Below are positions 266-52,576 of a stretch of 64,000 bases of DNA, in pieces; position 1 is the first letter of the stretch, and each line of letters begins with the position of its first letter. The DNA comes from Arenibacter sp. 6A1. Lineage in GTDB: Bacteria > Bacteroidota > Bacteroidia > Flavobacteriales > Flavobacteriaceae. A model generated the notes under the pieces. The model was given only the letters and a program-made list of their open reading frames with translations. It had not been told where the DNA came from and searched no databases. The stretch lies in contig NZ_JAAXCQ010000008.1 of the NCBI RefSeq assembly GCF_012272855.1, positions 1 through 64,000 on the forward strand, in the 5' to 3' direction. The position numbers were made by a program, and so were the translations under genes.

Positions 266-883
266 GGTTTTTTACAAGGTTTTTACACCCTTACCCCCAT
301 TTTAATTTTAACCGCTTTAATATAAGTATTTTATAAAGTAATAAAAATCGAAACTCGCTCCGAAAAGTCTCACGACTTCTCGACATACATCATTTTGAAC
401 CTTGAACTAATGCACCGCAAAGTCGGAGACTTTGCGAAACATGCCATTTGCGGAACAGGCTATTCATTAGACTATGGTAAACGATAATAATGTTAAAGCT
501 ACATTACTCATTGCTACTTTAAACAATTGTTACATTGAACAACTGTTACATTTTCACATTACAAAAAGCGTTAGGGATTGCAGCGGCATCCTTTTTTAGC
601 GGCAGCGCCGGCTAAAAAAGATACAGCGGAAAGCCCGACCCGCTAGGGGAACGCCCAAATTCCTATACCTATATATAAGGAGTGCACCTCAACGATACCT
701 AGGGGCTGCCCGCAACAATTTTTGCCGTGCAGACCTATAATCGGTGTTCTTAACCACAGCTCCGCGCACAGCATAAAATGACGGGAAATAAGAAGGCCCC
801 ATAACGAGTATGAGGCCCAAAGGTTTTATCTGCATGGCTTCCTATTCCCTTGTATAGGAACTATGCCGTGGATGATTGTCGGT
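261..883. other. Gene-free stretch between the leftward promoters and the efflux operon end
   Basis: No coding region is supported here. It contains a perfect 9-bp inverted repeat with a 3-base loop (CGCAAAGTC-GGA-GACTTTGCG, 416-436). Short runs resembling ATTGTTACATT at 500-555 lead into the dispersed structured element at 568-656. A 7-bp inverted repeat (TTCCTAT/ATAGGAA, 839-860) lies just past the stop codon of the outer-membrane efflux gene; it lacks a T-run, so it is not a convincing intrinsic terminator. Confidence 0.6.
568..656 (+). repeat. Dispersed structured element, copy 1
   Basis: Begins GCGTTAGGGATTGCAGCGGC and ends AGGGGAACGCCC, with terminal complementarity GCGTT/AACGC. Between the conserved ends lies a hairpin with arms CTTTTTTAGC and GCTAAAAAAG. 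Five further copies lie at 7479-7570, 12308-12387, 23262-23353, 24320-24396 and 52497-52576. It sits beyond the 3' end of the outer-membrane efflux gene, on the opposite strand. Confidence 0.85.
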
Positions 884-7478: not shown

Positions 7479-7570
7479 GGGCGTTCCCCTATCGGGTCGG
7501 GCTTTTCGCTGTATCTTTTTTAAAGGACCACAGGACCTTTAAAAAAGGATGCCGCTGCAATCCCTAACGC
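7479..7570 (-). repeat. Dispersed structured element, copy 2
   Basis: Reverse-orientation copy running from GGGCGTTCCCC to TCCCTAACGC. In its own sense the variable hairpin has arms CTTTTTTAAAGG and CCTTTAAAAAAG. It lies in the gap between the SDR gene's terminator and the promoter of the efflux regulator. Confidence 0.85.
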
Positions 7571-12307: not shown

Positions 12308-12387
12308 GCGTTAGGGACCGCGGCGGCATCCCCGCAGCGCAGCAAGGGATATAGCCAAGTGCCCGCCCGACGCAGGAGGGAACGCCC
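12308..12387 (+). repeat. Dispersed structured element, copy 3
   Basis: Conserved ends GCGTTAGGGA and GAGGGAACGCCC. The internal hairpin is of the second type, with arms ATCCC and GGGAT around CGCAGCGCAGCAA. Same strand as, and downstream of, the glutamate-synthase-like gene. Confidence 0.85.
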
Positions 12388-17704: not shown

Positions 17705-17778
17705 CTCCCCCTCTTGGGCTCGAACCAAGGACCCTCTGATTAACAGTCAGATGCTCTAACCAACTGAGCTAAGGAGGA
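17705..17778 (-). tRNA. tRNA-Asn (GTT), copy 2
   Basis: 74 bases without an encoded CCA. Acceptor arms TCCTCCT and AGGGGGA pair over 7 bp (one G-U); the D-arm starts GCTCAGTTGGTTAGAGC; the anticodon loop is CTGTTAA with anticodon GTT between CTGA and TCAG stems; the T-arm is CTTGG-TTCGAGC-CCAAG. Identical to copy 1 at 18082-18155. It has its own promoter (17803-17832) and its own terminator. Confidence 0.97.
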
Positions 17779-18081: not shown

Positions 18082-18155
18082 CTCCCCCTCTTGGGCTCGA
18101 ACCAAGGACCCTCTGATTAACAGTCAGATGCTCTAACCAACTGAGCTAAGGAGGA
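18082..18155 (-). tRNA. tRNA-Asn (GTT), copy 1
   Basis: Base-for-base identical to the gene at 17705-17778, with the same acceptor, D-, anticodon and T-arms and no encoded CCA. The upstream copy in transcription order. Confidence 0.97.
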
Positions 18156-23169: not shown

Positions 23170-23523
23170 TATCAGTAGTAGGAACAAACCCACCCTGCCC
23201 ATTTTCTTGGCCTATAGACAGCTCTGCCAATTGTGGTGAATAATACCCCTTTTTTTAAGTTGGGCGTTCCCCTAGCGGGTCGCTCTTTCCGCTATATCTT
23301 TTTTAAAGGCCCCTTGGCCCTCTAAAAAAGGATGCCGCTGCAATAGCTAACGCGGGATTCTGTGAAAAGAGAGAAGAGAGAAAAGAAAAAAGAGGATCAC
23401 ACCTCAAATACACCGAGTTGCATTTGCCGTGGGTGGCCAGCCAAGCGATGTCTATGCCATTATTCTACAAATAGAAAGATTTTTTAATACTATATCTTAC
23501 TCTAACTACAGTGTTAAAAAATG
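23170..23523. other. Gene-free stretch after the feo operon
   Basis: Apart from the dispersed structured element at 23262-23353 nothing is recognised. Purine-rich sequence around 23360-23395 has no reading frame. Confidence 0.55.
23262..23353 (-). repeat. Dispersed structured element, copy 4
   Basis: Runs GGGCGTTCCCC to AGCTAACGC in reverse. In its own sense the hairpin arms are CTTTTTTAGAGGGCC and GGCCTTTAAAAAAG. They differ from copy 2 at several positions on both sides. Confidence 0.85.
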
Positions 23524-23558
23524 TTTGTTACCATATTGGTAACTATTTAGTATCTTTG
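23524..23558 (+). promoter_or_regulatory. Promoter and operator of the higBA locus
   Basis: TTTG (23524-23527) and TATCTTTG (23551-23558) form the promoter. The palindrome GTTACCA-TAT-TGGTAAC (23527-23543, perfect 7-bp arms) lies between them, the expected place for HigA autorepression. Confidence 0.7.
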
Positions 23559-23573
23559 AGTGAAAGAATTGTG

Positions 23574-23869
23574 ATGCGAGAGTAATCGCTAAACGAATTT
23601 TACGAGATTTTTGGGTAAAACATGCTGATTGCGAACAGCAACTAAAATCATGGTTCAGAGAAACCGAAAAATCTAATTGGAATAACATTAATGAATTAAA
23701 AAGTGAGTATCCAAGCGCAAGTATTCTAAAAGACAATCGAATAGTTTATAACATAAAAGGCAATAATTATCGTTTGATTGTAAAATTCAACTTTGAATAC
23801 CAAATATGTTGGATACGTTTTATTGGTACTCACGCGGAATACGATAAAATAGATTCAAACAACATCTAA
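23574..23869 (+). pseudogene. higB: HigB-like RNase toxin, frameshifted at its start
   Basis: From 23576 the frame reads ARVIAKRILRDFWVKHADCE and continues without interruption for 97 residues to IDSNNI and a TAA at 23867-23869. This is the full HigB-type fold, with the typical KSWFRETEKSNW, NRIVYNIKGNNYRLIVKF and RFIGTHAEYDKID. No ATG, GTG or TTG stands in this frame at its start. The only ATG (23574) reads ATG-CGA-GAG-TAA. Removing one GA from GAGA restores ATG-CGA-GTA-ATC (MRVIAKR, the usual HigB start). I therefore read a 2-bp slippage insertion, probably inactivating. Confidence 0.8.
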
Positions 23870-23871
23870 TC

Positions 23872-24228
23872 ATGAACATAAAACCTATTAGAAACGAAGA
23901 AGACTATCAGAACGCTCTCGACCGCCTTGAGATAATTTTTGATGCTAAAAAAGGATCTGAACATGGCGATGAATTAGAAATCCTTTCCATTCTGATTGAC
24001 CGCTACGAAAACGAACAGTTTCCCATGGCCATGCCTGACCCTATTGAGGCCATTAAATTCCGAATGGAACAATTAGGCATGAAACAAAAAGACCTGGTAG
24101 CCGTTGTAGGATATAAAAGTAGAGTCAGTGAAATTCTAAGTAAAAAACGCAAACTGACTTTGGATATCATTAGAAAACTGAACACAAGCCTACATATTCC
24201 GACTGAAGTTTTAGTTCAAGAGTATTAA
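23872..24228 (+). CDS. higA: HigA antitoxin (XRE-family helix-turn-helix)
   Basis: 118 residues. N-terminal part (NIKPIRNEEDYQNALDRLE) and acidic linker typical of the HigA group that follows HigB. The C-terminal XRE helix-turn-helix is MKQKDLVAVVGYKSRVSEIL followed by KKRKLTLDIIRKL. It starts 2 bp after the toxin stop codon. It should bind the palindrome at 23527-23543 and repress the locus. The toxin frame next to it is broken while this gene is intact, as expected if toxin loss is tolerated. Confidence 0.92.
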   Translation: MNIKPIRNEEDYQNALDRLEIIFDAKKGSEHGDELEILSILIDRYENEQFPMAMPDPIEAIKFRMEQLGMKQKDLVAVVGYKSRVSEILSKKRKLTLDIIRKLNTSLHIPTEVLVQEY

Positions 24229-24319
24229 AAATAAGTAACAGCTACTCTGTAGTCATTATACATCCTACCTTATTTCTTTCTTGGCAGATTGAGTCATTGC
24301 CAAATTGTTTATTGTAGAT

Positions 24320-24396
24320 GCGTTAGGGATCGCAGCGGCATCCCCGCAGCGGAGCAAGGGATATAGCGAAGAGCCCGACCCCTTAGGGAAACGCCC
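24320..24396 (+). repeat. Dispersed structured element, copy 5
   Basis: GCGTTAGGGATCGCAGCGGC to TAGGGAAACGCCC. Hairpin of the ATCCC/GGGAT type, like copies 3 and 6. It lies between the convergent higA and DUF423 genes; the rest of 24229-24471 shows nothing else. Confidence 0.85.
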
Positions 24397-52496: not shown

Positions 52497-52576
52497 GGGC
52501 GTTCCCTCCTTCGTCGGGCGGGCGCTTGGCTATATCCCTTGCGCTGCTGCGGGGATGCCGCCGCGCTCCCTAACGC
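52497..52576 (-). repeat. Dispersed structured element, copy 6
   Basis: Reverse orientation, GGGCGTTCCCTCCTTCGTCG to GCGCTCCCTAACGC. Hairpin of the ATCCC/GGGAT type; very close to copy 3. Lies between the convergent cold-shock and tadA genes, 11 bp past the tadA stop codon. Confidence 0.85.

Follow-up and report, generated by a model that had tools for sequence, protein, structure and literature searches.

Flavo-1 (RF01705) has been listed in Rfam since 2010 with no function assigned. Among DNA sites, single-strand promoters or initiation sites of the Frpo, ssi and sso types are known from plasmid leading regions, and Chi is a short unstructured word that acts as a polar border of recombination. 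Dispersed REP hairpins have as their hallmark a 5' GT[AG]G foot, while atypical structures go with the TnpA_REP subclass 2.6 of Bacteroidetes, both as given in the sections of the source that treat these structures (PMC6006769). For F. psychrophilum, the passages of a report dealing with Flavo-1 describe matches in both sense and antisense orientation, many of them beyond transcribed regions (PMC9723704).

The window analysed here, a stretch of 64,000 nucleotides from Arenibacter sp. 6A1 (contig NZ_JAAXCQ010000008.1), contains six copies of a dispersed element family that we name E, with a long class A, a short class B and a plasmid class C. Class A is found at 568..656 (+ strand), 7479..7570 (-) and 23262..23353 (-), class B at 12308..12387 (+), 24320..24396 (+) and 52497..52576 (-). 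All six had been reported by the first-pass annotation and were recovered with the same coordinates and strands; a scan of the whole contig added no others within the window. The fixed ends described there are present in 6/6 copies (GCGTTAG at the start, AACGCCC at the end), as are the inner blocks GCGGCATCC and GATA(T/C)AGC. The idea of one family holds for the shared ends and core, but not in the sense of a uniform class. The copies at 7479 and 12308 face outward with genes between them. Those at 23262 and 24320 also face outward and form the left and right borders of an island (interior 23354..24319), inside which lies a 118 aa antitoxin-like HTH_3 gene (23872..24228, +) with a weak domain match (22.1 bits, cut-off 23). 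The site of the copy at 52497 carries no E in 16 further congeners. The window also carries two tandem tRNA genes of equal score (17705-17778 and 18082-18155, 66.9 bits each).

That the element might be Flavo-1 had been a guess, which was right for three of the six copies: the class A copies at 568, 7479 and 23262 score 54.9, 60.3 and 47.7 bits against a cut-off of 42. The copy at 24320 stays below it with 36.3 bits, and those at 12308 and 52497 were unmatched up to E=1. Class B copies have ends and core in common with class A and are relatives missed by the Rfam model.

The fold begins with GCGTT/AACGC, followed by GGG/CCC (or GCT/AGC, GCG/CGC), an irregular helix containing A.G and G.A mismatches, then GC/GC, a 3x3 loop GGC/AYA and ATC/GAT, and is completed by a variable hairpin and a short CCC/GGG hairpin. 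In congeneric loci L097, L098 and L110 a second palindrome is inserted at the tip of the Flavo-1 hairpin (CCTGCAAGGTTT..AAACCTTGYAGG). The stems covary and the loops are conserved. Across 44 class A copies (L021 excluded), 96.1% of the alignment cells pair and 64 cells carry a double change, compared to 27.1 in shuffled alignments (0/500 shuffles); for the 35 class B copies the values are 92.5% and 17 versus 5.2 (0/500). With the class A alignment slid by +1, 34 double-change cells remain. Counted by pairs with a double change, class A is not above chance (6 versus 5.4 shuffled, 237/500) and class B shows a weak excess (3 versus 1.4, 26/500). Folded as RNA, the class A copies at 7479 and 23262 are better than their shuffles, and folded as DNA all three class A copies of the window are; class B and plasmid class C fold no better than shuffles.

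Pairwise comparison with A. nanhaiticus (G009), which is ~92% identical to Arenibacter sp. 6A1 (G000) across long runs, provides a measure of constraint. G009 was identified as this species by 3509 bases identical to A. nanhaiticus CGMCC 1.8863. All 18/18 copies on contig C59 of Arenibacter sp. 6A1 are paired in A. nanhaiticus at the same place and on the same strand; a recent burst of insertion, at which the copy numbers hinted, was rejected on this finding. Elsewhere, on a different contig, the two genomes do not agree in two copies. In 16 of the C59 pairs (one unparsed and one class switch dropped), changes amount to 0/112 at positions 1-7, 8/80 at positions 8-12, 1/192 in the block GCnGCGGCATCC, 6/128 in the GATAYAGC block, 4/128 at the end and 17/354 in the tail. 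The core shows 1 change in 304 positions, the hairpin 44 in 364. The core of E is kept by selection or homogenisation.

Covariation, conserved loops and a constrained core would all be expected of a structured RNA (small RNA or cis element), as which Rfam files Flavo-1, and some old low-copy sites, for example beside hemE, are kept across the genus. The covariance check suggested earlier did yield covarying stems; a consistent strand signal for the RNA reading was not found. The listed strand folds better in 29/56 class A and 11/55 class B copies, so that no strand is favoured, and the share of G.U in the hairpin on the +/- strands is 5.0/2.5% in class A and 1.8/11.5% in class B. Relative to the neighbouring genes, 39 classifiable copies of 40 comprise 16 antisense, 10 sense, 8 divergent and 5 convergent cases. 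A wrongly assigned Rfam strand, which the first six tandem contexts suggested by being antisense (L013, L014, L171, L178, L181, L182), was likewise dropped with the 16 versus 10 of the 40-copy set. Together with the lack of orientation and the position of many matches outside transcribed regions in F. psychrophilum, as the Flavo-1 passages of that report have it (PMC9723704), this leaves the proposal of a structured RNA unsupported, and we regard it as quite improbable. Low-copy Flavo-1 matches of Arenibacter sp. 6A1 lie in or beside cofactor genes (thiE-thiC, hemE-hemF and bioB; L013, L014, L016).

In the 4.67 Mb genome of Arenibacter sp. 6A1, GCGTTAGNNNNNGCNGCGGCATCC with up to 2 mismatches has 116+111 matches, or ~227 copies, well beyond chance, while the reversed-pattern control has 0+0. 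The A/B pattern count is 227 in this genome, 210 in A. nanhaiticus and 3-14 in the other 16 congeners, with at least one match in 33/60 relatives. Flavo-1 was found in 18/18 genomes of the genus searched, with at least 68 matches in Arenibacter sp. 6A1, at least 64 in A. nanhaiticus and at least 5-10 in the remaining congeners, counts that are floors from 150 scored candidates per genome. Across the order, with 11 candidates scored each, 137/395 genomes have a match, and Aquimarina has E of the same GCGTT...AACGCCC form. Near-identical class A copies occur near the ends of small contigs (C8, C29-C32; L020 on C30); since C30 starts with an apparent 5S rRNA end, such copies may flank rRNA operons.

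Based on crude ORF calls for 82 copies, the gap is convergent for 34, divergent for 13 and tandem for 35, with 2 copies overlapping a called ORF; 19 of 101 copies too near a locus end were left out, and those in five loci overlapping contig C59 were entered twice. A position beyond gene 3' ends and never inside genes, as claimed before, is therefore a tendency (34/82 convergent) and not a rule. The median distance to the next called gene is 142 bp from the 3' end of E and 481.5 bp from its 5' end.

The absence of a transposase close to the six window copies was confirmed. In other parts of the genome, a Y1_Tnp gene or its remnant is found within ~1 kb of two copies and one variant. A REP-like or MITE-like nature, also considered in the first-pass annotation, fits the form (dispersed, intergenic, hairpin), but linked transposase, target duplication and GT[AG]G foot are missing. 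Mobilisation of E as the REP of a RAYT, that is by a Y1_Tnp protein, is a highly doubtful explanation. It would draw on weak Y1_Tnp genes ~1 kb from Flavo-1 in 8 congeners and on the atypical structures ascribed to subclass 2.6 in the relevant section of PMC6006769. However, these 8 cases collapse to one syntenic locus with its own repeat, at which Arenibacter sp. 6A1 keeps Flavo-1 without the gene; 0/30 Y1_Tnp loci in genus g40 have Flavo-1, genome G188 has Flavo-1 and no Y1_Tnp match, and E copies start with GCGTTAG instead of the foot. A RAYT partner was rejected on the first two of these points. The order hemE - Flavo-1 - EI24-like gene - RAYT - hemF is conserved in L123, L136 and L137 (G014, G003, G015); the RAYT gene is surrounded by its own repeats there and is missing in Arenibacter sp. 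6A1 (L014). On contig C58 of the latter (L010, L011, L032), a RAYT-like Y1_Tnp gene occurs twice, accompanied by an array of GC-rich repeats of its own (GGCACGAGCGTGACCCTCGCGCTAGCG), and a broken version of the gene adjoins an E.

The two sides of E differ. DNA rich in short words like ATTGTTTATTGTTCACTG and CATTGTTACATTA and carrying a ~100 bp repeat with AAATGCAACGACTTGCATTTGCAGTAAGGGGCC, referred to here as junk, lies near the copies at 568, 7479 and 12308 and at many other loci. When 77 copies, most of them chosen by Flavo-1 matches, were compared pairwise, the 5' flanks shared sequence in 555/2926 pairs and the 3' flanks in 1. In register with E, sharing was found for 125 pairs of 5' flanks over 22-298 bp and for 0 pairs of 3' flanks. 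The asymmetry persists where at least 100 bp (142 versus 1 of 1485 pairs) or at least 200 bp (35 versus 2 of 406) on both sides are noncoding, on an unselected contig (12 versus 0 of 136) and in the A. nanhaiticus set (11 versus 0 of 78), with a background of 10/20706. The junk word TTGTT.A.TG is present in 36 of 87 flanks on the 5' side and in 0 on the 3' side. The 16 A. nanhaiticus loci picked by pattern, mostly lone class B copies, show no polarity and 8 copies from Aquimarina nearly none (28 pairs; 1 versus 0), hence polarity concerns copies with junk. A polar border of E is undescribed within the open-licence papers searched; the flank polarity is new, the Flavo-1 family itself being already catalogued.

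Between the two species the 3' sides of E break as well, which counts against a one-sided border. Followed outward from E, collinearity is lost within 41 bp at 12/17 sites for the 5' side and within 64 bp at 6/18 sites for the 3' side; by site, breaks are only 5' at 9, only 3' at 2 and on both sides at 3. At site 220807 the class has switched between B and A, with the 5' flank replaced and the 3' flank kept. At two sites (L053, L055) the two species have different DNA as far as the first base of a class B copy; there collinearity restarts, and E and its 3' side are kept. In L053, A. nanhaiticus has a lone class B copy and Arenibacter sp. 6A1 an arrangement <-A interior B->, in which the B resembles the orthologous one. 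Its interior, the A and 55 bp beyond the A match another A. nanhaiticus locus (<-B interior A->; 94% and 85%), whose counterpart in Arenibacter sp. 6A1 is a lone A. The 85-94% identity of this tract is about the species distance and so gives neither the direction nor the age of a transfer; an old duplicate that was lost differentially would fit as well. In L055, A and B are common to both species and the interior comprises 324 non-collinear bp in Arenibacter sp. 6A1 versus 3317 bp in A. nanhaiticus, where the two termini of a receptor gene are present (CarbopepD_reg, Plug, OMP_b-brl_3; 317 bp mid-part excluded). With a repeat-rich and replaced 5' side and a 3' side that stays, E resembles a border of exchangeable DNA more than a small-RNA gene.

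Spacing and orientation of neighbours bear on a transposon reading, in which A and B mark either end of a non-autonomous <-A...B-> element that moved whole and decays fast inside. Among 97 listed copies, neighbour pairs less than 2 kb apart are outward in 8, inward in 2 and same-strand in 0 cases (2-10 kb: 10, 3 and 3; >10 kb: 11, 25 and 17), and 7/8 close outward pairs join A with B, which speaks for this reading; on contig C59, 15/17 neighbours alternate in strand. Close pairs, mostly outward, bracket junk islands, an antitoxin-like gene (window 23262-24396) or a receptor gene (A. nanhaiticus). Sites were also gained in the lineage of the two species; at the feoB site, a single class B copy, oriented like the class A copy of Arenibacter sp. 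6A1, is present in G015, and six others have none. Nevertheless, target duplication among 88 copies does not exceed the shuffled expectation (4 bp: 6 seen, 7.6 expected), lone class B copies without junk occur, the L053 tract extends 55 bp past A while B stayed, and no ORF is common to 55 neighbourhoods (largest cluster 3 loci). We therefore consider transposon ends unlikely.

Some introns and IS elements insert at hairpins, and other mobile repeats might accordingly land beside folded E, always on its 5' side. The 5' flanks common between copies in register with E would fit, as would ATTGTT[CT][AC]CTG, which lies within 12 bp of E 15 times and elsewhere 14 times. With such a landing pad, register-anchored matches of widely varying length, up to 298 bp, are less expected, and the receptor gene occupies the same slot; this explanation appears distinctly unlikely. 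In the integron attC consensus, RYYYAAC stands before GTTRRRY. The order is reversed in E, with GTT first and AAC last, and attC was rejected as a candidate.

Relatives of E were also found outside chromosomes. Queries with the classic and class B forms returned zero plasmid or phage matches, and the class A query three partial plasmid matches. The latter, and then 90 plasmid and 3 phage records with class C, refuted a restriction to chromosomes. The 90 plasmid records, 80 of them covering at least 80%, were retrieved with a Phocaeicola copy as query and belong to Bacteroides (62), Phocaeicola (12), Parabacteroides (11), Moraxella (2), Butyricimonas, Vibrio and Acinetobacter (1 each). Conjugative plasmids account for 48/90; many of the matches listed (30 of 90) are one plasmid kind, so the independent cases are few. 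One of the 3 phage records matches across most of the query. Full copies with both ends are present in Phocaeicola, B. ovatus, Moraxella ovis (two), M. catarrhalis and viral contig L377, whereas a pattern match on viral contig L227 was discarded as chance. Plasmid copies score 27-30 bits with the Flavo-1 model, below the cut-off. The mobilizable plasmid pMOV1 of Moraxella ovis has two same-strand copies of 156 bp each (L376 2876-3031, 5790-5945); downstream of E comes an operon that comprises a small gene and the genes for a coupling protein and a MobF relaxase. In pBF9343, E has an ArdC-like ssDNA-binding gene on one side and a recombinase gene, with its 3' end towards E, on the other, and in the M. 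catarrhalis plasmid an antirestriction gene is ~0.7 kb away. The B. ovatus copy is beside an IS942 transposase without a transfer or anti-restriction gene. The plasmid sites may represent leading regions. An E variant of the plasmid class is also found in Arenibacter sp. 6A1 (L011 2699-2780, contig C58).

Taken together, E has a high copy number, a constrained core, covarying stems, a sharp change of flanks and plasmid relatives with the same ends; its 3' (AACGCCC) side is unique, stabler DNA and its 5' (GCGTT) side shared and fast-changing. We tentatively propose that E functions as structured, single-stranded DNA and forms a one-sided border, a reading to which we assign a probability of a little under 0.4. 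Copying would start in or at folded E and run into the DNA 5' of it, the only direction open to a strand primed on the E strand. Alternatively, a broken end resected to E may pair with another E and copy the donor's 5' flank. In either form, E would anchor one-sided ectopic repair or template switching. If copying passed through an E of opposite orientation, that copy would be carried along, producing the outward pairs <-A...B->, which may be slots with exchangeable contents. No enzyme acting on E was found.

A broader version, in which E sites are cross-phylum ssDNA start sites that swap cargo slots without an integrase and Flavo-1 is DNA misfiled as small RNA, is speculative and, as a whole, unlikely to be right. 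In conjugative plasmids of Bacteroides and Moraxella, E might initiate synthesis or transcription on the entering strand, and the hundreds of copies on flavobacterial chromosomes might send copying one way; one-way copying would turn outward pairs into cargo slots, with junk, antitoxin-like and receptor genes being swapped. A polar border in the DNA itself would give Flavo-1 a testable role and fit the missing orientation in transcriptomes. Flavobacterial intergenic DNA, sometimes with genes, would then be exchanged without a known transposase, and plasmid relatives in two phyla would connect E to conjugation. The 555-to-1 flank asymmetry calls for an explanation even if the mechanism is wrong.

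Among the described systems nearest to E is Flavo-1 (PMC2864571): class A passes the model, and core, loops, variable hairpin and occurrence in Bacteroidota are in common. Classes B and C are below the cut-off, however, and Flavo-1 is filed as a small RNA, whereas the evidence here points to DNA. Like REP/REPIN sequences with their RAYT, E forms dispersed intergenic hairpins, often as outward pairs, but it is 80-90 nt long, has internal loops and one-sided flanks, and lacks the GT[AG]G foot and a linked Y1 gene. The plasmid copies resemble the leading-region sites Frpo, ssi and sso in being hairpins by transfer and anti-restriction genes and in the polar synthesis these sites direct; the likeness is one of context, and E differs in its hundreds of chromosomal copies. 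Finally, E appears to act like a polar border of recombination, as do Chi sites and break-induced copying, with the difference that Chi is an unstructured word and E a hairpin found about every 20 kb.
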